Part shown: piece after piece, positions 3,533 to 24,344 of the stretch
Position numbering within the stretch: the stretch's first letter is position 1
Layout: every line of letters begins with the position of its first letter
From: a virus
Virus record (IMG/VR): IMGVR_UViG_3300031643_000636
Coordinates: 1 to 24,344 of that record
Direction: 5' to 3' (one strand)
Length of the DNA: 24,344 nucleotides
The notes under the pieces: generated by a model
Told to the model about the DNA's origin: nothing
The model's input: the letters and a program-made list of their open reading frames with translations, nothing else
The model's database searches: none
Position numbers and translations under genes: made by a program

Positions 3533-3953
3533 GCTTTTCCTCCTCTGGCCATACTCCATACCCTCCGTTAGATCTTTCTTTTTCCTTGGCCACAAGCTCT
3601 CTGAAATAAGAGAGCGTTGCTTTCCAATCTCCCTCAAACCTTATGCCACGGTCATCAATCCAGGCAATGCAAGGAGGCTTTCCTGGATTCTGATGCTTGC
3701 AGACCGGAGCACTGTTAATGAAGTCATACGGGATTTGGTGCTTCTCGAACCACTCGCGAAGGTGCGGAGAGTTTCCTCTGGTAGTCCAGACGAGGATTAA
3801 GTATCCCTCTTTCTTGAGAGACTCCAAGGCCTCTTTAGCTCCCGGCATGGGATCCCCGAGCACAAATTCTCCTTTCCAGCCGTCATACTGAGCCAGCACA
3901 CCGTCGAAGTCTATGCCGATGATGGGATTCTTGCGATAGTCCACGTCAGTCAT
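3513..3953 (-). CDS. HAD-superfamily phosphatase
   Basis: 146 residues. HAD motif I is DFDGVL (Asp15, Asp17), the second motif is WTTRG (Thr57, Thr58), and the last acidic motif is WIDDRG (Asp100, Asp101). This catalytic set makes an aspartyl-phosphate intermediate to remove phosphate groups. The size and the short cap match small phage HAD proteins related to 5'-nucleotidases or the phosphatase half of polynucleotide kinase. No kinase P-loop is present. Its ATG overlaps the stop of the upstream dNTP-hydrolase-like gene (ATGA), which points to nucleotide pool management. Substrate not determinable. Confidence 0.85.
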   Translation of the reverse strand: MTDVDYRKNPIIGIDFDGVLAQYDGWKGEFVLGDPMPGAKEALESLKKEGYLILVWTTRGNSPHLREWFEKHQIPYDFINSAPVCKHQNPGKPPCIAWIDDRGIRFEGDWKATLSYFRELVAKEKERSNGGYGVWPEEEKHDSLPE

Positions 3954-4288
3954 TCGGGAAATTCCTTGATGGGGTTATGTGTCCGGTCGTCCAGCTCTGG
4001 ATGTGTCCGGTCAAACTCGAGAAGAAATAAGAGTTCGCATATTGCATGGGCGAGATGGTGCTTGCCGGTTTTGTAGTCCAGGTCTTCGCCAGCCTTGAAT
4101 TTCAGAATGTGCCGCTCGGCTGCTCCAATGCAGCGGCTCCAACTTAGCCCTTTCTCCCAGTTACGGGCTCCATACTCCTTGACACCATGGGCGAGAACCT
4201 CGCCAACCTGGAGAATGGGACCAGGGGGGATCAGGTCTACTCGAGATTTGCCCTCATCGTGCTTGGTACCCTGTGACTTATCTGTCAT
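3950..4288 (-). CDS. dATP/dGTP diphosphohydrolase-like protein (former DUF5664)
   Basis: 112 residues from the ATG at 4288, which has GGAGGGCAAAAGC before it; an ATG 15 bases upstream has no ribosome site. The pattern KHDEGKSRVDLIPP, then YGARNWEKGLSWSR, a RH helix, GEDLD and HHLAHA is typical of the phage family that I recall being renamed for the N-terminal domain of dATP/dGTP diphosphohydrolases. The His and Asp/Glu residues of these blocks would form a metal site. Such enzymes shape dNTP pools and in some phages serve base-modified genomes. It overlaps the ATPase upstream and the HAD phosphatase downstream. The family is fairly sure; the exact reaction is inferred. Confidence 0.78.
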   Translation of the reverse strand: MTDKSQGTKHDEGKSRVDLIPPGPILQVGEVLAHGVKEYGARNWEKGLSWSRCIGAAERHILKFKAGEDLDYKTGKHHLAHAICELLFLLEFDRTHPELDDRTHNPIKEFPE

Positions 4289-5513
4289 GCTTTTGCCCTC
4301 CATTGTCGAAGATGAATGGTTTGAAGTTCGGATTGATCATATACAGTATATCTTTATTCTCTACTCGAGTTACGCACTCGCCAGAGCCTGTGAGAGCAGG
4401 AAGCACTCTCTTCTTCAGATTTTCGTACGACACGTCTCCCTTGACTCTTGAGTATATCTGCTGCACGCTCAGAGCAGTAGAGGCTTGCCTCAGAAGGTCT
4501 ATTACATACTGCTGGGTTTGGGCAAGGTCGTCTCTTGTCACGTGGGACAGAGACCTCGGCATGTCCCGCTCTGCATCGGATAGAATCTTCATAGCCCTAG
4601 AGAAGTCGTACTCGTTTACTTGCCTATTCCCGTCTCGTCTGGAGGCAGAGGAAATTGTGGCCAGTTTCATGAGATGAGCACCACGCCGGGAATTATACCC
4701 GTCGAAATCCCTCCCAGGGACCTCCTGGACCTTGGCATTCTCGATATACCAGAGCTCGTAAGCTCTCTGGAAGTCTGAGGTCTTGGAAAAGTTACCTCTC
4801 AGGTTGTGAATTGCTCTCAGGTCAGCCTTCAAGTTGGATCTCAGAGTTCTGCGCTCCGGGGTGTTGTATCGCTCCGGATTCGGATCGACGCCACGAGTGT
4901 CTGACCATACAAAGATCATTCGTCCAGTCAACCCGGCACCCACGGCAGTCGGAGGGATAGCCTTGTTGATCCCATCTGGAGTTATCCCTCCAAGGAGTGT
5001 CAGATAACTCTTCTCAACGAAGCGCAGACCGTCTGTAACAGTTCGATGCTTATACGGCCCGCAATCATATAGCTTTATAAGAGCCTCGTGCCATTTTACA
5101 TCTACCTTTGCAGGTCTCAAGAACGTGCTGAGCTCTTCAGCAAACACCGCATAAGAAGCGTGACCGTATGCTCCTCCGGACTCCTCGTAATTTGCCTTGT
5201 ACGCAGCAATCATTTCGTCAAAGAGAGCACTCGCTGTGGTACTGTCTACCCCCATAGAGACCTGATTCTCTTCAAGCATGCGCAGTCCGACTCTCAAAGC
5301 CTCGGTCTTGCGATTGCCTGAAGGGCCAACAAGGGCAATGTAAAAGTTCGGGTAGAATGCAAGGTCTGCACCATGTTCCAGCCGGCACTTACGCTCCAGC
5401 ACGGTAGACAATGTTGCTATGCCAGACCAAATGCAGTAAGCATCACAGCATTCCATGGGCTTTGTGTATTCCATGAACCCGTCAAGCCAGTCATTCAGCT
5501 GCCTCTGAGCCAA
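4278..5513 (-). CDS. DUF3987-type P-loop ATPase, putative replicative helicase
   Basis: 411 residues starting at a TTG; AGGAGGGG lies just upstream and the first in-frame ATG (5474) would cut into the conserved N terminus. A Walker A loop, GPSGNRKT, is at 63-70 and a Walker B-like strand AVFAEE at 122-127. LGGITPDGI near 193 and the following GLTGRMIFVWSD block match the DUF3987 family of phage and plasmid ATPases, thought to be helicase or primase-helicase proteins. The C-terminal 80 residues look like a winged helix (STALSVQQIYSRVKGDVSY). Placed beside polymerase and sigma factor genes, a replication role is the natural reading. No primase motif is seen. Confidence 0.78.
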   Translation of the reverse strand: MAQRQLNDWLDGFMEYTKPMECCDAYCIWSGIATLSTVLERKCRLEHGADLAFYPNFYIALVGPSGNRKTEALRVGLRMLEENQVSMGVDSTTASALFDEMIAAYKANYEESGGAYGHASYAVFAEELSTFLRPAKVDVKWHEALIKLYDCGPYKHRTVTDGLRFVEKSYLTLLGGITPDGINKAIPPTAVGAGLTGRMIFVWSDTRGVDPNPERYNTPERRTLRSNLKADLRAIHNLRGNFSKTSDFQRAYELWYIENAKVQEVPGRDFDGYNSRRGAHLMKLATISSASRRDGNRQVNEYDFSRAMKILSDAERDMPRSLSHVTRDDLAQTQQYVIDLLRQASTALSVQQIYSRVKGDVSYENLKKRVLPALTGSGECVTRVENKDILYMINPNFKPFIFDNGGQKHDR

Positions 5514-5801: not shown

Positions 5802-6290
5802 TTACAGACATCTGCGCAAATTCTTCCTGACTCTGCGTATGATCTGCCAAACCCTGCCAGCAGACAGTCCGTACTCATCTGCCAGCCTTTGAGCTTCCAC
5901 ACGCCCACCACCATTACGGCAGTAGTTCAGGAATACCTGTGCATCTCTGGCTTTCATTCTGCCAAGTAGCTTTTCAATACTTGCCTTCAAAAGTGTGTAG
6001 TTCTCCAGACAGAGCTCCTTCTCTGTGTGCTTTACACTGTCCAGAGAAACAAAGGCCCGTTGCTCTTTTCCTCTCCCATAGTGTCTCCTCTTTATGTCGA
6101 GTGCTCTTCTCTGTGCAATCTTTCTGACATAATTCGGTCCGAAATGCTTTGGAGCCTGCCGCCAGATATCCATGAAAGCTTCCTGCACGGCATCTTCGAC
6201 CAAGTCGTTGTCCTGTAGTATAGGAAAGCACACAGCACAAGAGTACTCGTACCAGTTGCCAAACAGGTTTTTGAGGTCTCTATTAGTCAT
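5802..6290 (-). CDS. ECF-like sigma-70 family factor
   Basis: 162 residues. Residues 28-72 read as sigma region 2 (NDLVEDAVQEAFMDIWR, then a long basic helix through RRALDIKRRH), the part that contacts core RNA polymerase and the -10 element. Residues 105-160 read as region 4, with a helix-turn-helix in LADEYGLSAGRVWQIIRRV that would bind the -35 element. Region 3 is missing, as in ECF sigmas. The gene overlaps the polymerase stop by 8 bases. A phage-coded sigma factor would direct host RNA polymerase to middle or late phage promoters. A DNA-binding regulator with a sigma-like fold that no longer binds core is the alternative. Confidence 0.82.
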   Translation of the reverse strand: MTNRDLKNLFGNWYEYSCAVCFPILQDNDLVEDAVQEAFMDIWRQAPKHFGPNYVRKIAQRRALDIKRRHYGRGKEQRAFVSLDSVKHTEKELCLENYTLLKASIEKLLGRMKARDAQVFLNYCRNGGGRVEAQRLADEYGLSAGRVWQIIRRVRKNLRRCL

Positions 6291-8775
6291 TCCATGCCTC
6301 TTTCAAGCAGACACCGAGGCTCACAGCTGAAGTGACCGACTTTAAGTCTATCTCCTTCATCGGGTAGAATGAGCGTCCCATCTTAAGCTCAGCCGGGATA
6401 AAGAACTTCCGGCCTTTCCATGAGAGCGGTAGCTGAAGGCTGTCGCGAAGGCGCAGTATCATGTCAGCCATTCTGACCCATCCATGTGAAAGGGGAATCT
6501 GAAAACAGATTTCGTCATGTATCTGGTTCAGCAATTCTAAGTACTGGAACCACTGCTGGTTTTCATGAATGAACAACAGGCCCCTCCAGTTAATGATGTC
6601 GGAAGTCGTGGATTGACCCATCCATGCATAAGCATCCTTGAACAGCTCACGGCCCCACCGATCCATAAAGTACCGCTTCCTTCCCACTGGATTAGTGAGC
6701 GTGCGATCCTTCTCGAGTTGGACTTTCACGTCGCGATGGAACACGTTCTGGATATTGGAATAGCCCAGGTGGTATTTACGAATGATACCGGCTGCCTGAT
6801 TCACCGGCATTTCCCAGTCCAAACTGGCTGCTATCGCACTCATGCCGTAGTTGAGCGCATGGTTTGGGCGCTTGCCCGCTGCATCACGCTCGGAATCTTC
6901 CGGCCTTCCGGCATATGGAGTGCTTCCGGGTTCTCTGCTGATATCTTTTGGATCCTTGCCAAGTATCTTGCCAGCCGTCAAGCTGTGGACATCCTTGCCC
7001 TCTTCGTAGGCTCTCATGAGCTCGGGCTCATTTGCGAGATAGGCAACCGTTCGGCTATCTGCGCCGCTCAAGTCTACACTAAAGCCTGCATATCCGTTGT
7101 CAGCAACCCATATCTTACGAATTCGTTTGGGAAAGGTCTGCTGGTTCATTCCTGTTCCCCACAGAAACTTCGAAGACTTGAGACGCCCGGCCTTCCCAGT
7201 CGGATCGAAGGAGGACCGCAAACGCTGATCCGGATCCATATCGAACAGGACAAAGGTAGACAGGGCCTTTCTTGCACGTCTCGCATCCAGCACATGCCGA
7301 GCCGCTTCTTCTCCCTTGATCTGAAGACGAACAAGGGCGTGCTCGTCCACCGTGACCGAGCCCTTGGTTTTGTATACCGGATAATTCTTGCTGTACTTGA
7401 GGACGCGCTTTATGACAGGCCCAGGCTCTTTCTTGGAGAACTCTCTGTACCCCTTCTCGCCGTAGAAAAAGGCGATACACTGCTGAGACGAATTGGGATT
7501 CAGCTTGATGCCGGTCTCCTTTTTCAAAGCGGCAAGCGCATCCTTCTCTTTTTGAGCGTATACCTTGGCCATGGACTCCCGCTCTGCAAGGTCAATCTTG
7601 ATCCCGCGGGCCTGCATGGCAAGTATCGGACCCATCAGGCGCATCGTTTTGTTGTACAGGTCTGAACACTGGCGCCGCTTGGCCTGTGCCAAGACCTTCG
7701 GGAGGATCTCTTGCAGGACCACCACGTCCTTGCAATTGTAGAGGGAGAACTGCGCCTGGTCCCACTCCCTACCTCTCCATGCGTCCCCTTCTGTTTTGTA
7801 GTACGGGGTCCGCGTGTGGAGGGAGGTCAGGATCTCGAGTGCCTTCTCCAGGTCGGGAAAGGACAGTTTGTGTGCAATTCCAGTATCGTGCTGCACATTG
7901 ACACGTATGCCAAGTTTGCGAAACAGCATGTATGCATCGTAACCGATGTTCTGAGCTACGACCGGGTGCTTCTTCAGCACATGGGTAATCAAAAGCCATA
8001 TGTCGGCTTCCTGCTCGGGTGTCCATATATTCTGCCATGGTTCCAGAAAGGGTATGCTGATGGCCGAATTGCCCCACGAGAGGCCCACATGTGACACCTC
8101 GTCGTTGATCGCTTCGAGGTCGAGGCCAAGGACGCCGCCTGGAAGATCGTCCAGCAGGAGGCTCTGTAGGCGCTCATGGACCGCTTCGTACGAGGGCTGT
8201 ATTGTGAACCCGTATTTGGGACGCCGCAGTTCCGGGAATTCCATGTCACTCTTGATTCGCATTATGTCCTGAATGGCATAATACCGGTTCATCCAGTTTC
8301 GGCGGACACCGGCAGGGTGGAATGTCGGGATCACTTTGCGTCCGGGTAAGAGAGTGGACTCGAGAATGGAGCCACGGTACTTGCCTATCCCGCGCAGGCC
8401 AGTTAAGGCGTAGAGAGGATAGTTACCCAAGGGCACGAGTACATTGGCAGTGCAGAGGGAGAGCTCATGCCTAAGCTCTTCCACACTCTCGAGCCACTCA
8501 CTCCACCGGGGTGCGGATTCGATGGGCCGGGTCTTCGTCGGCTTTGTGAGCCGTGCGAATACGCTCATGTTGTCATTCGGAGCACGCTCTTTCCGAATGT
8601 TCGTGAGCCGTATGCGTTCGCGAACAATACCGGCAGTGGAGAGCCACCTGTTGAGCTCGCGTCCGGCTTCCCCGACAAAGGGCTCGCCACGGGCGACCTC
8701 TTCGGCAGCGGGAGCTTCGCCGATGAACACGGCGAGGGCGTCGAGGGGACCGCAGGGTTCAACTCTTATGGACAT
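6283..8775 (-). CDS. UDG-like domain fused to family A DNA polymerase
   Basis: 830 residues from the ATG at 8775, with AAGGAGG seven bases before it. Residues 1-180 resemble family 4 uracil-DNA glycosylases: GEAPAAEE at 19-26, GEPFVGEAG, TNIRKERAP, a PLGNYPLYALTG helix and FHPA (His153). The cysteines that hold the Fe-S cluster in family 4 are mostly absent. Residues 195-355 are a proofreading 3'-5' exonuclease (Asp219-x-Glu221, Asn276 and Asp280, Tyr346 with Asp350). Residues 370-830 are the polymerase: motif A DLSGADSR at 568, motif B with Lys635, His639, Tyr643, and motif C IHDE (Asp754). All metal-binding carboxylates are kept. It is the main replicative enzyme of this phage and overlaps the methyltransferase gene by 17 bases. 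Confidence 0.92.
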   Translation of the reverse strand: MSIRVEPCGPLDALAVFIGEAPAAEEVARGEPFVGEAGRELNRWLSTAGIVRERIRLTNIRKERAPNDNMSVFARLTKPTKTRPIESAPRWSEWLESVEELRHELSLCTANVLVPLGNYPLYALTGLRGIGKYRGSILESTLLPGRKVIPTFHPAGVRRNWMNRYYAIQDIMRIKSDMEFPELRRPKYGFTIQPSYEAVHERLQSLLLDDLPGGVLGLDLEAINDEVSHVGLSWGNSAISIPFLEPWQNIWTPEQEADIWLLITHVLKKHPVVAQNIGYDAYMLFRKLGIRVNVQHDTGIAHKLSFPDLEKALEILTSLHTRTPYYKTEGDAWRGREWDQAQFSLYNCKDVVVLQEILPKVLAQAKRRQCSDLYNKTMRLMGPILAMQARGIKIDLAERESMAKVYAQKEKDALAALKKETGIKLNPNSSQQCIAFFYGEKGYREFSKKEPGPVIKRVLKYSKNYPVYKTKGSVTVDEHALVRLQIKGEEAARHVLDARRARKALSTFVLFDMDPDQRLRSSFDPTGKAGRLKSSKFLWGTGMNQQTFPKRIRKIWVADNGYAGFSVDLSGADSRTVAYLANEPELMRAYEEGKDVHSLTAGKILGKDPKDISREPGSTPYAGRPEDSERDAAGKRPNHALNYGMSAIAASLDWEMPVNQAAGIIRKYHLGYSNIQNVFHRDVKVQLEKDRTLTNPVGRKRYFMDRWGRELFKDAYAWMGQSTTSDIINWRGLLFIHENQQWFQYLELLNQIHDEICFQIPLSHGWVRMADMILRLRDSLQLPLSWKGRKFFIPAELKMGRSFYPMKEIDLKSVTSAVSLGVCLKEAWND

Positions 8776-10015
8776 CGGCAAGCCTCCTTCTAGCTATTTC
8801 GCAGGCGTGAGGGTCGCTGTCGATACAGATGAAACTGAAGCCTTCAAGTATGGCCGCCTTTCCCGTGCTGCCGCTTCCGGCAAATGGGTCGAGAATGATT
8901 CCACCTGGCGGCGTAACCAGTCGGCACAGGTAGCGCATTAACGCGGTCGGTTTGACTGTCGGATGGTCGTTCCCTTCGCCACGGTCGGCCTTGCTTGCTT
9001 TTGCACAGTAAAAGAACCGAGCGGCGGAACCTTTATCTCGAAAGTCGTGCGTTTCTCTTTTCCCTCCCCAACTCATCAATTGATCCGGGATGTCTTGATG
9101 AACTGGATTATTTGGATTACCGGAGGCTCTTGCACTGTTGGCAATCGGAAACCCCGCCAGCACTTCCTCGCTTCCATCGTGGATTATGTTTGCGGGCCAG
9201 CGGCCTTGCGGGGTCATGCCTGATACAACTATTGATTTCTTTTTAGACCAATCATTACCAGTATGAAAATTCCCAGACTTAAAATTTGATCTTGGGGATT
9301 CTGCTCTTTTAATGCCCGCTTCATAAGCATTTTCATCTGGTTGGAATTCTATCCTGCATCCGTCAATATTCATCGCACCCGTCCCGTGCTTCAGCACATT
9401 CTCGGCAACCGTCCCTTCAATCGGCTTGCGGGCAACAACTATAGGCTCATGGGCTGGCTTAAGTGCTGTTCCCCAACCGTTCCATTGACGGGCCGCTTCG
9501 GTGGCTGGGGCCGTGATAAAGTTATTATGTCTTGTTTTCCCGCTTAAGGTGTTGTGAGCACACTCTTTATTGTAGTTGCCAGAACTATTAGGGGTTCTAT
9601 TGCTGTATAATTTCCCGTCTGGCGTCCTCTTTTCTCTCACCACTTTTCCCTTTTTTCCCGCCGCCTTATCTATCGCTTTACTCACGTCCAGCGACTTCGG
9701 GAAGCCACTCCCGTACAGCCAGCCGATCTGGTCTCGAATCTCAAACCCCGCATCCTCAATGTTCACAACGCCCCGGTGATAAGTGCGGGTGCCGAAGAAG
9801 CTGAGTAGATGCCCGCCCGGCTTCAATATCCGGAAGCACTCTCGCCATGCGTCAACACCTGGAACATCATAGTCCCATTTCTTACCCATGAACTTGAGGC
9901 CGTAAGGCGGATCGGTGATAACCGCATCGACACATGCATCCGATAGGTATTGCATAAACTCGCAGCAATCCCGACAGATCACTTGGCCCAGGAAGGCTTC
10001 AACTCGGATCGGCAT
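8759..10015 (-). CDS. DNA N4-cytosine/N6-adenine methyltransferase, beta-class order
   Basis: 418 residues from the ATG at 10015, preceded by GGGGAGGAACACG; a longer frame lacks such a site. The catalytic motif DPPYG is at 35-39 and the SAM-binding motif DPFAGSG at 376-382, that is, catalytic motif first and SAM site last with a long target-recognition region between, the beta-class order. It transfers methyl groups from S-adenosylmethionine to exocyclic amines in DNA. No restriction endonuclease gene is adjacent, so it is probably an orphan enzyme that protects phage DNA from host restriction or marks it for regulation. The target sequence cannot be read from the protein. Confidence 0.92.
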   Translation of the reverse strand: MPIRVEAFLGQVICRDCCEFMQYLSDACVDAVITDPPYGLKFMGKKWDYDVPGVDAWRECFRILKPGGHLLSFFGTRTYHRGVVNIEDAGFEIRDQIGWLYGSGFPKSLDVSKAIDKAAGKKGKVVREKRTPDGKLYSNRTPNSSGNYNKECAHNTLSGKTRHNNFITAPATEAARQWNGWGTALKPAHEPIVVARKPIEGTVAENVLKHGTGAMNIDGCRIEFQPDENAYEAGIKRAESPRSNFKSGNFHTGNDWSKKKSIVVSGMTPQGRWPANIIHDGSEEVLAGFPIANSARASGNPNNPVHQDIPDQLMSWGGKRETHDFRDKGSAARFFYCAKASKADRGEGNDHPTVKPTALMRYLCRLVTPPGGIILDPFAGSGSTGKAAILEGFSFICIDSDPHACEIARRRLADVHKS

Positions 10016-10514
10016 CGTGTTCCTCCCCTTCTGCTTCAAAGTCAACTCCGTGATCGGGACACTCGTAGTGGGAGGTACACACTTCCATTTCTCCCACCAC
10101 ATCGCCAATAAAGTCTGGTGTGCATACGCTTATTAGCTCTTTTCCACACCAGCACTTCGGAGTGGCATGCTCTCGCTCGCAGTCGGGACATAGTATGTAG
10201 GGATAAAACTTTCCACACGAGCGGCACCGCGTTGCATAAGAGGAGACTTCAGGGAGTGCCTCGCCAACCATGCCATCACGCATGGATACCAGCACGACGA
10301 ACGCAGCCTGTTCGATGGCCTCTTGCTTTGTAAGGCGGTTTGCCTCCACAGCAACTCGCATGGCCGAGACATATTTCCTGGACAGCTGATTGCGGGCCAT
10401 CCTCGCCAAGGCAAATCCGTACTGCAACACCCACTCATCGGTCCAGTCGGATCCTGCTGCTCTTGCCATGATCTGCACGAGGTACCGATAAACATCGCGT
10501 CTAAACTTGGTCAT
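9999..10514 (-). CDS. Zinc-cluster protein of unknown function
   Basis: 171 residues from the ATG at 10514, where AAAGGTGG precedes it. The first 105 residues are helical and mildly basic. The second half carries a dense set of metal ligands: CRSCGK and CPDCE at about 112-129, CWCGK about 12 residues on, then a CTSHYEC block and a nearby PDH. This looks like a two-site zinc ribbon. The tail is acidic. It overlaps the methyltransferase by 17 bases and the HTH gene by 14. Such proteins often bind DNA or protein partners; I cannot name a family. Confidence 0.75.
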   Translation of the reverse strand: MTKFRRDVYRYLVQIMARAAGSDWTDEWVLQYGFALARMARNQLSRKYVSAMRVAVEANRLTKQEAIEQAAFVVLVSMRDGMVGEALPEVSSYATRCRSCGKFYPYILCPDCEREHATPKCWCGKELISVCTPDFIGDVVGEMEVCTSHYECPDHGVDFEAEGEEHDADPS

Positions 10515-20746: not shown

Positions 20747-20979
20747 TCGATCCTCCTCGGGTCTGCTGCTATTTGAGTGTCAAGGTCGCCCATGCACACT
20801 GTGGTCCAGTTCTCTGTGTCTTCGGGCGTGGAAATTTGAACTGAAAACAAGCCGCCGCCGTTGCAGGTCAGCCGTACCAGCCCTGACGGGCATCCCATTG
20901 TCGCCGTCACTTCTTGTGACAGGGGCACGGACACAAGCTCCGTCCGGCGGCCCATTGTGTCTAATTTTGCTACGAGCAT
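20743..20979 (-). CDS. Hypothetical protein
   Basis: 78 residues from the ATG at 20979, preceded by GAGGAGGACACATA and overlapping the upstream stop as TAATG. It looks beta-rich (KLDTMGRRTELVSVPL, LVRLTCNGGGLFSVQIST, NWTTVCMGDLDTQI). No family recognised; tightly coupled to both neighbours. Confidence 0.7.
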   Translation of the reverse strand: MLVAKLDTMGRRTELVSVPLSQEVTATMGCPSGLVRLTCNGGGLFSVQISTPEDTENWTTVCMGDLDTQIAADPRRIE

Positions 20980-21512
20980 TATGTGTCCTCCTCGGTCGGC
21001 TCCCTGTATGTCGCCGCCACTTCCCATAAATTCATGAGACGGGAATTGGGGTTAGGATTTTCTGATTCTTCCCGGCTCGACCTGTTGCGTCGAAGCACAA
21101 AGCGCTCGGGATTAGCGATTCCACCCAAGAACACACTGGGGCGGTTCTCGACGAAGACTCCAGGGCTGGTAAGCTGAAGCTTTCCGCTGGTGCAGTGGAG
21201 GATTAAGGCCATCTGATACGGGTTCTTTGGCTCGGGAGAACCGTATAAGGCCTGTATGTTCTCTGAGTTCTCATATTCGTATAGCAAGCTGTTCCGATTT
21301 GCCCGTCCTCGAAGCGACCACAATGACTCGTCACCGCTCACCCAGCGGCTAACCAGTCTCAGAATTGTCAATCTCATGTCCTCTACTCTATCAGATTGCA
21401 TGAAGTGGTAAGGGTGTATGGAGCCCAAGAGAACCTGGCGAATCATAAGTAGCTCTTGTGGGTTTAGCTTGGCATGCTTAAATAGCTTTATTATATCCGG
21501 AGCAGTGAACAT
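20979..21512 (-). CDS. Hypothetical protein
   Basis: 177 residues; AAAGGAGGATAAAATA precedes the ATG, which overlaps the upstream stop as TAATG. The first 60 residues are helical, with a possible HTH in LNPQELLMIRQVLLG; the second half has strand-like blocks (MALILHCTSGKLQLTSPGV, VFLGGI) and a polar Ser/Arg/Asn-rich linker near 145-155. No family recognised. Its place right after the amidoligase operon makes it part of that transcript. Confidence 0.7.
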   Translation of the reverse strand: MFTAPDIIKLFKHAKLNPQELLMIRQVLLGSIHPYHFMQSDRVEDMRLTILRLVSRWVSGDESLWSLRGRANRNSLLYEYENSENIQALYGSPEPKNPYQMALILHCTSGKLQLTSPGVFVENRPSVFLGGIANPERFVLRRNRSSREESENPNPNSRLMNLWEVAATYREPTEEDT

Positions 21513-21700
21513 TATTTTATCCTCCTTTTGTTGGGCCTCTTTCCGCTACGGTTTTGACGGCGGGACTCTTTTTGGAGTCTGCGAAGTCGCTTTGACTTCT
21601 TTGTACCTTGCCCGGAGAACCTCTTCCTTGGTTCCTTTTTGGCCGCGCTTGGTTTGCAAGAGAAGAGGGACTTTATCAGATTGAAAAGCCATCGAAACAT
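21512..21700 (-). CDS. Small very basic protein
   Basis: 62 residues; GGGAGCTACATC precedes the ATG. An amphipathic start (MFRWLFNLIKSLFSCK) could sit on a membrane; the remainder is almost all Lys, Arg, Ser and Gln (KKSKRLRRLQKESRRQNRSG). It overlaps the amidotransferase gene by 25 bases. It could bind nucleic acid, or be a substrate of the amide-forming enzymes next door; the latter is only a positional guess. Confidence 0.65.
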   Translation of the reverse strand: MFRWLFNLIKSLFSCKPSAAKKEPRKRFSGQGTKKSKRLRRLQKESRRQNRSGKRPNKRRIK

Positions 21701-22830
21701 GATGTAGCTCCCTTGATTAGTGTGGCACCACTACCCGCCAAGAATACTTCGGTGGTTTTCCAATACCCCTTCATGGCGCACTGGTGCTTCACGGATGCGA
21801 CAGTCTCAGCACAGGCTATACACACTCCTCCGCGAGAGGGCTTCGGAGCTGTCTGACCTGACTTGTATATCTTTGCCACTGCGTCGTTGAGCTTGGCAAA
21901 GGCATAATACATAACCGTTGCTCCCGCTCTGTAGGGCAATTCCTTGCCGGGCTTCGGAGTTGAGGTGGTGATTGTATAATACACTGTTTTCTCTGTGGCC
22001 CTGCCTTTAGTATACGAGTAGGACTCATAGTCTTCGTCCGCGTAATCATCGTAATAGTGCCCTGCCCATCGTGTGCTCGAATATTGAGAACGCGGAAGAT
22101 CAAGCTTTGACTGGGTCCATTCGAGAGTCTTCGGATTCAGAGAGACCAGAGTATCAGTCGGTGCTTCCCACAGAGACCACTTTCCCTTTGGGAGCATCTG
22201 TGTTATCCCCTTCAAGTGAGTCAGTATCGACCCGTAGATAAACAGGCCCTGCTCTCTGTTGGATCCCTGATATAGAGACGATACACTGTCCGACAGTATG
22301 TGGATGTTCGGATGTCGTATGGACGAGAAAGCCATTGCTATTGAGCCATTGCAGAGTTTCAGCATCTCGCTAAAGGGTTTCACCTCCAAACCCGTATGTG
22401 TCATCGCTTTGTCCGCTATCCGAAACAGTATTTCACTATCCACTGCATATTCCTGCGGAAGGTCCGAGGTCCTGAACAGCTGGTCTGAATTGTAGATCAT
22501 TCCATTGTGAGTCCCGACGACAGACCCGGCTACTATTGGGTGATTGTTTCCGTTGGAAGCTGCATTGCCCTGAGTGGATAGCCTTGTGTGGCCCATCAAG
22601 TAATACAGGTTCCTTGTAGAGAGCAACTCATTATAAGACTTTAGCTCTATCAGCTCGGAAGCTGGGATATTCGTCTTTACCAGTTTCCAGGTATGCTTGT
22701 CTGGCTTGTTGTAGAAAGCGGCAACTCCAGAGGCGTCTGTACCCCGGCATTGGGCCAGTGTTAACAAAGCTGTGAAGGCCCTTTTAGAATCTGCATTTAT
22801 GTTTCCGACCATTCCTACTAATCCGCACAT
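21676..22830 (-). CDS. Class II glutamine amidotransferase
   Basis: 384 residues from the ATG at 22830 (AGAAAGGACTTGTC before it); this start puts the catalytic cysteine at position 2, as the family needs after Met removal. Ntn-hydrolase motifs are complete: MCGLVG, QCRGTDASG (Arg29), MGHTRLST (His81-Arg83), GTHNGMIYN (Asn109, Gly110) and VDSEILF (Asp131). It frees ammonia from glutamine. The C-terminal 120 residues have a Tyr/Asp-rich low-complexity region and a CIAC plus HQC set that may bind zinc. No synthetase domain is attached, so the ammonia must serve a partner, most likely the adjoining amidoligase, whose gene overlaps by 13 bases. Confidence 0.9.
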   Translation of the reverse strand: MCGLVGMVGNINADSKRAFTALLTLAQCRGTDASGVAAFYNKPDKHTWKLVKTNIPASELIELKSYNELLSTRNLYYLMGHTRLSTQGNAASNGNNHPIVAGSVVGTHNGMIYNSDQLFRTSDLPQEYAVDSEILFRIADKAMTHTGLEVKPFSEMLKLCNGSIAMAFSSIRHPNIHILSDSVSSLYQGSNREQGLFIYGSILTHLKGITQMLPKGKWSLWEAPTDTLVSLNPKTLEWTQSKLDLPRSQYSSTRWAGHYYDDYADEDYESYSYTKGRATEKTVYYTITTSTPKPGKELPYRAGATVMYYAFAKLNDAVAKIYKSGQTAPKPSRGGVCIACAETVASVKHQCAMKGYWKTTEVFLAGSGATLIKGATSCFDGFSI

Positions 22831-23702
22831 GACAAGTCCTTTCTGTGTTTGAGCAAACCATTGCACAGGTGAAGGCGGCAGTTCTCGAATTCGGCGCCTT
22901 TGATTCCGAGATTATAGATGAATCGCCTGAGTCTCTTCAGTGCCTGTTCTCTACTTACCGTTCTGAGTGGATCGCCGTTCCCTATTCCGTCTCCTTCGGC
23001 AGCTTTCTTCACCATATGGAGGGCAAGTACAACATAAGACCGGATTTTCCCGGCGTGTAGTGTACCATTGAAGAATCTGAACTCAACTGTGCCTCTGTAC
23101 CAGTGCGAGTGCAGATTTAGGCTGTAATACCGACTGCCGTCATACTGGCTTGACCCAGCGTGCGGGTCACCGTACCACATGGACTTCATGCCATCCGATC
23201 CGAAATTTGAGAGTGACTTCCTATGATACCTGATTGTCTGTACAAGGCCATGTCTAACTGGCTTACAATAAGCCTCTCTTCTTGAGCTAAGCACTTCAAG
23301 TGCCTGATACAGCTCGTTCTGGTGCCGATGCATCAGATTCACAAGGCGAGCGAGAGCTCTATCACTCAGGTAGGAACTCTCGACATGAACGTGGACTCCG
23401 CAGGTCTCGTTTACATATGCACCAGCGGCTTTTAGGGCTCTCACGGCTTCTTGCAGAAATCCGATGTCCTTGTAGTAGAGAGGTGGAGTTACCATCTCAC
23501 CAACGTTGTCCGATCCGCACTCTCCATCGTTGTCGCTGAGAGACCCGTCGTCTCTGAAGTCCCAATCGCCTCCTCGGGGATCAATGATATTCGAGTTGTC
23601 ACGCGTCCAGTTCAGGTGTTCAGCAACGACACAACATCCTTCTTCGGTGCCCATACCAACATACTCAACTTCGACACCGAATCGCATTTGTTTATAGTCC
23701 AC
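22818..23702 (-). CDS. Amidoligase (COOH-NH2 ligase, glutamine-synthetase-like fold)
   Basis: 294 residues with a GTG start, since AAAGGAG lies 8 bases before it and the next ATG is too far. Family motifs in order: RFGVEVEY (Glu11, Glu13), GDWDFRDDGSL (Asp52), GEMVTPPL (Glu69), TCGVHVHVE (His104, His106), YYSLNLHSHW and GTVEFRFFNGTLHAGK (Glu207, Arg209, Lys219). This matches the Amidoligase_2 family, predicted to use ATP to join a carboxylate to an amine, making peptide-like side links or amides. Glu and His would hold metals and ATP. Overlaps the amidotransferase gene, its probable ammonia source. Substrate unknown. Confidence 0.88.
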   Translation of the reverse strand: MDYKQMRFGVEVEYVGMGTEEGCCVVAEHLNWTRDNSNIIDPRGGDWDFRDDGSLSDNDGECGSDNVGEMVTPPLYYKDIGFLQEAVRALKAAGAYVNETCGVHVHVESSYLSDRALARLVNLMHRHQNELYQALEVLSSRREAYCKPVRHGLVQTIRYHRKSLSNFGSDGMKSMWYGDPHAGSSQYDGSRYYSLNLHSHWYRGTVEFRFFNGTLHAGKIRSYVVLALHMVKKAAEGDGIGNGDPLRTVSREQALKRLRRFIYNLGIKGAEFENCRLHLCNGLLKHRKDLSCAD

Positions 23703-23889
23703 TTTTTCTACTCCTTTCTTTTGCCCACTGTTGAGTTTTGTGTACGATTAGCCACATCTGTCTTACATACTCCTCCTCTGTTTTAGTGAACTTGCTGTCC
23801 TCCGATTCGAGAGCCTCTCTCAGGAGAAGCTGAGCGCTGTCCAGCCTTCGGAGCGCCATGCCTATGGTTATGATCGCGGATCTCTCCAT
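23692..23889 (-). CDS. Small helical protein
   Basis: 65 residues; GGGAGGATTCGG precedes the ATG. It is nearly all helix (ALRRLDSAQLLLREALESED, then EEEYVRQMWLIVHKTQQWAKERSRK), probably a two-helix hairpin. It overlaps the amidoligase by 11 bases and its upstream gene by 22. No family recognised; an adaptor or enzyme partner is possible. Confidence 0.7.
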   Translation of the reverse strand: MERSAIITIGMALRRLDSAQLLLREALESEDSKFTKTEEEYVRQMWLIVHKTQQWAKERSRKSGL

Positions 23890-24344
23890 CCGAATCCTCC
23901 CGCCCCGGTGCTCACAGACTCTGTGACATACAGGAAATCTGGATCTACGCTCCTGAGTCGCCTCGGCTCCGCAGGCTTTGCCTTTCGCACCCTGAAGCGT
24001 GTTTTGTACCTGGCTCTGAACTTGTTCACTGATTCTACTATGGCTACTTGGTATCGCCAGTCATAGATCAGAGTTGGAGTGCTGCCTGACTGTCCAAAGT
24101 TCAGGTACTGGGCCTCGACGACGCCCGCTGGCCCGCCTTTCATATCCGAGATATTATCTATCCCTAAGAGTCCCGCCAACACACACATGGGATGCCACCC
24201 ATTTCGAAAGTTAGAGGAGCGGGCTTCTATTGGGAAAAACCGGGTGTCGATCACTCCATTCACGAAATCCCTTAGCAGCTTCCAGTTATAATCATGGCGG
24301 GGACCAGACAGATCCAAATTTCTGAGCTGGCTTGCTGTTACCAT
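23868..24344 (-). CDS. Hypothetical protein at the window edge
   Basis: 158 residues from an ATG that is the last base triplet of the window; its ribosome site is not visible, so the true start may be further out. The N-terminal half has aromatic-rich segments (HDYNWKLLRDFVNGVIDTRF, NGWHPMCVLAGLLGIDN); the second half is basic (KFRARYKTRFRVRKAKPAEPRR) and ends in a Gly-rich tail. I see no ATP-grasp or transferase motif. As first visible gene of the amidoligase operon it may act in the same pathway. Confidence 0.65.
   Translation of the reverse strand: MVTASQLRNLDLSGPRHDYNWKLLRDFVNGVIDTRFFPIEARSSNFRNGWHPMCVLAGLLGIDNISDMKGGPAGVVEAQYLNFGQSGSTPTLIYDWRYQVAIVESVNKFRARYKTRFRVRKAKPAEPRRLRSVDPDFLYVTESVSTGAGGFGWRDPRS

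Follow-up and report, generated by a model that had tools for sequence, protein, structure and literature searches.

Pairs of genes for an amidoligase and a class II glutamine amidotransferase (GATase) have been published for UFV-P2 and other LUZ24-like phages (PMC3890496), phage tf (PMC3517423), RIO-1-like phages (PMC5498523) and OM43 phages (PMC10580990). In RIO-1-like, LUZ24-like, PA11-like and phiEco32-like podoviruses they are summarized as part of a predicted cassette for the modification of peptides or peptidoglycan (Iyer 2009 and Hardies 2013 as cited in PMC5498523; PMC3890496). The proposed role is a change of the cell wall together with superinfection exclusion (PMC5498523; PMC10580990; PMC11253131) or, alternatively, a function in nitrogen metabolism (PMC10945688). 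Single cases of a link between an amidoligase and a gamma-glutamyl cyclotransferase have also been reported (PMC11318856; PMC11253131). In the literature searched, no report of a tested substrate of the phage amidoligase-glutaminase pair and no biochemistry of any Amidoligase_2 protein was found. Tailed phages frequently carry such pairs, which are predicted to modify host molecules; the census of neighboring genes presented here shows which partners travel with them and suggests gamma-glutamyl chemistry, leaving fewer candidate substrates to try in an initial biochemical assay.

The pair described here is a new, divergent example of this known arrangement. It is located in a virus record of 24,344 bases that was analyzed over its whole length (the window), and no near relative of the whole window was present among the phage records searched. 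The window resembles the podovirus cassette in having an Amidoligase_2 gene and a class II GATase gene in the early/replication half of a tailed-phage genome. The cassette, however, also comprises a COOH-NH2 ligase, an ATP-grasp gene and often a cyclotransferase, and its amidoligase represents another subfamily with only 17–20% identity to the one studied here; no ATP-grasp gene or second COOH-NH2 ligase was found within the 24-kb window, which is cut at one end near the pair, and both are also absent from several other amidoligase-GATase pairs. Arthrobacter phages (Laroyevirus, Ottawa) share with the window an amidoligase followed directly by a free class II GATase with no ATP-grasp gene nearby, but in these phages a cyclotransferase precedes the pair, and the identity is only 22–24%. 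The OM43 phages (PMC10580990) likewise combine PF12224 and PF13522 in one phage group, but belong with a different host lineage and are likened to the window by family and not by sequence comparison. Finally, the amidoligase of the window falls in the same subfamily (31–41% identity) as those of Firmicutes prophages and the Heliusvirales, which are paired with a cyclotransferase and lack a GATase, unlike the window, where a GATase is present and a cyclotransferase was not detected.

The amidoligase and glutaminase genes

The pair and the adjacent genes are arranged as follows:

20979..21512, minus strand: gene of 177 aa without assigned function, second gene downstream of the GATase
21512..21700, minus strand: gene of a strongly basic protein of 62 aa, 25-base overlap with the GATase end
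21676..22830, minus strand: class II glutamine amidotransferase (GATase) with a GlmS/PurF-type glutaminase domain, 384 aa (PF13522, model)
22818..22830, minus strand: overlap of 13 bases between amidoligase and GATase, possible translational coupling (gene coordinates)
22818..23702, minus strand: Amidoligase_2, 294 aa, GTG start, ribosome-binding site AAAGGAG (PF12224, PHROG 2443, AlphaFold2 model)
23692..23889, minus strand: gene of 65 aa without assigned function, 11-base overlap with the amidoligase start
23868..24344, minus strand: gene of 158 aa without assigned function, upstream of the pair and running to the contig end

An earlier, sequence-only reading had described two enzyme genes that overlap by 13 bases and are flanked by small genes of no assigned function. 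The overlap (22818-22830) is exact if the GATase starts at ATG 22830, which most likely is the true start rather than GTG 22866, since AAAGGA is found just upstream and the encoded protein begins with MCGLVG, placing the catalytic cysteine at position 2, whereas GTG 22866 has no such site. Overlaps are common on the minus strand, where they occur in 23 of the 37 called neighboring gene pairs, and the 13 shared bases were therefore rejected as a special sign of coupling. The flanking small genes are present on both sides as described. The 65-aa gene had no Pfam or PHROG match. The 177-aa gene occupies the position where many relatives have a gamma-glutamyl cyclotransferase, but is not itself such a gene.

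Profile matches expected by the sequence-only reading were obtained for both proteins. The product of 22818-23702 matched PF12224 (Amidoligase_2) with an E-value of 3.4e-43 and 148.7 bits (curated cut-off, 22 bits) and PHROG 2443 (amidoligase) with an E-value of 2.4e-50, and the GATase open reading frame (21676-22866) matched PF13522 (GATase_6) with an E-value of 2e-14 and 54.1 bits (curated cut-off, 27 bits). That both enzymes keep their catalytic residues was borne out by alignments of 34 amidoligases and 27 GATases: residues E11, E13, D52, E69, H104, H106, R141, R191, N196, E207 and R209 of the amidoligase are invariant across the 34 relatives, and in the GATase the cysteine that becomes N-terminal once Met is removed (C2), the glutamine-binding residues R83, T86 and D131 and the oxyanion-hole pair N109-G110 are conserved in at least 26 of the 27 aligned rows.

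The AlphaFold2 model of the amidoligase (pLDDT 91) had its best structural matches, with Z-scores of 14, in 2gwc (plant glutamate-cysteine ligase), 1tt4 and 1r8g, among them YbdK. The alignments with glutamate-cysteine ligase and YbdK extended over 240–249 residues, and glutamine synthetases and the depupylase Dop ranked next. A sequence profile search of the PDB retrieved no Amidoligase_2 structure, its only hits being brief repetitive stretches of designed proteins or surface proteins. Because of its fold and active site, the protein is predicted to be an ATP-dependent carboxylate-amine ligase of the glutamine synthetase/glutamate-cysteine ligase fold.

A profile built from the 27 GATases found E. 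coli GlmS with an E-value of 2e-22, above PurF and asparagine synthetase. The counterparts of GlmS Cys1, Arg26-Gly27, Arg73, Thr76, Asn98-Gly99 and Asp123 are all retained in the GATase, and GlmS Trp74 is replaced by Leu at a position that varies among the relatives (Y, W, L, F). The structural model, in which residues 1–250 mostly have a pLDDT above 90 and a tail of about 130 aa falls below 50, has the Ntn fold of the GlmS/PurF type and matched PurF and GlmS with Z-scores of 26–28 and EgtC with a Z-score of 21.9. The C-terminal tail (approximately 21740-21810) contains a possible zinc-binding CxxC...HxC motif, GVCIACAETVASVKHQC, and cysteine-pair motifs also end the GATases of five other loci (L006, L014, L017, L199 and L203).

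Partners of related amidoligases and glutaminases

Viral contigs were scanned with a GATase profile built from three close sequences, all of which were previously known to adjoin amidoligases, so that the scan favors close kin. Of the 29 loci obtained, 28 had an amidoligase adjacent to the GATase, in 27 cases on the same strand and usually at a distance of 0–500 bases, and the remaining locus is truncated by its contig end, which falls within the GATase. Even GATase matches with 25–45% identity were still paired with an amidoligase. A corresponding scan with a single amidoligase sequence returned no loci. Annotated phages with both genes close together include Arthrobacter phages, ctwe8250, Vibrio 1.293.O, PA11-like phages, Klebsiella Klyazma and Pseudomonas Bjorn, the amidoligase of the latter having been detected in the present analysis. 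Since an amidoligase adjoins the GATase in 28 of 29 viral loci, the pairing is not due to chance, and it is widespread in phages. Hence, on the two points on which the sequence-only reading had staked its case, 22818-23702 does have a profile match and homologs of the two genes are neighbors.

A different picture emerged from the census of the 160 loci in viral and bacterial collections that are closest to the amidoligase of the window. An AIG2-like gamma-glutamyl cyclotransferase was found beside the amidoligase in 148 of these loci, mostly directly downstream and with a median of 7 bases between the open frames (confirmed by Pfam in five sampled loci), whereas a GATase adjoined the amidoligase in only 2 of the 160 loci of this same subfamily. 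Among 16 whole records that were checked, 14 had no adjacent GATase and none elsewhere in the record either. The most useful new observation of this study is how strong the link to a cyclotransferase is in the amidoligase subfamily to which the window belongs. Both a GATase and a cyclotransferase are present in 20 of 31 loci. In the window, PF06094 (cyclotransferase) had no match within the 24.3 kb, and the record ends just beyond the 158-aa gene beside the pair. One Clostridia-like amidoligase/cyclotransferase locus (L144) lies inside a contig titled as a Thermoplasmatales archaeon MAG, where a binning error is likely.

In a quick tree, the amidoligase of the window was placed beside a cyclotransferase-only member in a group mixing both kinds, on a long branch that makes its exact position uncertain. 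At least four changes are needed to explain the distribution of the GATase label on this tree, in which related sequences are not independent counts, and the GATase partner therefore has been gained or lost repeatedly. The glutamate-cysteine ligase fold and the frequent presence of a cyclotransferase next to related amidoligases point to gamma-glutamyl-type amide bonds, with the GATase as a probable added source of ammonia.

Another recurrent neighbor of phage amidoligases, present in 19 loci, is a conserved protein of roughly 80 aa (M-I-E-RDGR-LQGTALQIV-AM) for which Pfam gave no family above cut-off; in two loci (L185 and L201) the cyclotransferase carries it as a C-terminal fusion:

L126:7293-7529, L161:6764-7054, L022:6161-6400 and L021:6683-7009 (strand not given): examples of the conserved protein of about 80 aa that recurs beside amidoligases

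Neither this protein nor a cyclotransferase was detected in any frame of at least 25 residues in the window, and the 62-aa protein downstream of the GATase has no counterpart in the related loci.

Proposed reaction and alternative explanations

The preferred reading, to which we assign a probability of roughly 45%, is that the two genes encode an amide-forming pair dependent on glutamine. Ammonia would be freed from glutamine by the GlmS-like glutaminase, and the amidoligase would activate a carboxyl group at the expense of ATP and join it to this ammonia or to another amine; the activated group would most likely be the gamma-carboxyl of glutamate or of a similar side chain. From the folds and retained residues, with which it is consistent, we infer a plausible transfer of ammonia from the GATase to the ligase, and from the cyclotransferase in relatives a gamma-glutamyl chemistry. 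The family matches, the invariant catalytic and glutamine-binding residues, the fold matches and the conserved neighborhood all speak for such a pair. A point against it is the scarcity of the GATase in the ligase's own subfamily (adjacent in 2 of 160 loci, absent from 14 of 16 whole records); since most members lack a GATase, the ligase does not need a dedicated ammonia source. The failure to detect a cyclotransferase in the window, and to find an Amidoligase_2 structure in the PDB or biochemistry of such a protein in the literature searched, also counts against this reading.

Among possible substrates, a peptide of the host cell envelope, for instance the peptidoglycan stem, might be the likeliest; its alteration could render competing phages or lysins less effective. 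Both the cell-wall target and the presumed advantage for the phage are speculative. Nothing in the sequence favors peptidoglycan over other substrates. A host precedent for an influence of class II GATase-type enzymes on sensitivity to phages is AsnH of L. casei, the loss of which decreases sensitivity to phage J1 about 10^4-fold (PMC3885529).

The fold similarities also bear on a different sequence of events, in which the amidoligase first couples a gamma-glutamyl group to an amine, forming a bond that the GATase-fold protein subsequently breaks in the manner of EgtC, without any donation of ammonia. By fold, EgtA and EgtC of ergothioneine synthesis are comparable to the pair in the window, as in both a GCS-fold ligase acts alongside a free-standing class II GATase-fold protein. 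The modeled ligase matches glutamate-cysteine ligases (EgtA-type enzymes), the GATase model matches EgtC well and shares its arrangement as a free-standing glutaminase domain without a synthetase domain, and the cyclotransferase, the usual partner in relatives, likewise removes gamma-glutamyl groups. EgtC hydrolyzes a gamma-glutamyl bond and passes no ammonia to a ligase. It is, however, clearly outranked by GlmS and PurF in both the structural comparison and the sequence profile, being absent from the sequence matches of the 27-GATase profile. Moreover, a trimming GATase would be redundant with the cyclotransferase in the 20 loci that contain both. We regard this explanation as unlikely.

A role in nitrogen or amino-acid metabolism, with free small molecules as targets and gamma-glutamyl amides made or recycled to support the metabolism of the infected host, is quite unlikely. 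It was proposed for Phage-ZRK32, which has a GATase, an amidoligase, a glutathione synthase and a cyclotransferase, but the support consists of growth with the whole phage and not with individual genes (PMC10945688). The fold of the ligase, which is that of enzymes using free glutamate, agrees with such a role. Hosts, however, already possess glutamine synthetase and glutaminases.

A broader scheme, which is improbable at present, is that of a widespread gamma-glutamyl tagging system in phages, with the amidoligase as writer and the cyclotransferase as eraser. Some phages, including the one studied here, would add or substitute a glutaminase, so that the ligase produces primary amides on a target in the host envelope or on a protein and rival phages are blocked; the window would then represent a form that works with ligase and glutaminase alone, without an eraser.

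Modification of a small neighboring protein, for which the sequence-only reading had suggested the basic 62-residue protein (24 K/R, 2 D/E, hydrophobic N-terminus), is very improbable. In its favor, the gene of this protein immediately follows the GATase, has a plausible start and overlaps the GATase stop, and in some relatives the amidoligase has the conserved 80-aa protein as a neighbor. This conserved protein is missing from the window, however, and among 205 loci no relative of the 62-aa protein was found; nor does any comparable small basic protein follow the GATase in 30 other loci that were inspected. Having no counterpart in any related locus, the 62-aa protein was rejected as a conserved substrate and is a weak candidate substrate. 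Of the original proposal, the functional pair is supported and the peptide substrate is not.

Other genes of the window

Several further genes on the minus strand are related to DNA metabolism. The gene at 6283-8781 codes for a uracil-DNA glycosylase domain fused N-terminally to a family A DNA polymerase (PF03167 and PF00476), for which the closest full-length relative found was that of Desulfofustis phage LS06-2018-MD01 (34% identity). Near the primase and polymerase, 3950-4303 encodes a member of the dATP/dGTP diphosphohydrolase N-terminal family (PF18909, E-value 2e-31). No adenylosuccinate-synthetase-like gene was detected among the genes scanned in the window, and therefore no claim of altered bases is made. 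The gene at 8759-10108 encodes an N6/N4 DNA methylase, and since the match covers residues 60–440 on a model of 221 positions, the sequence suggests an insertion of about 160 residues in this enzyme.
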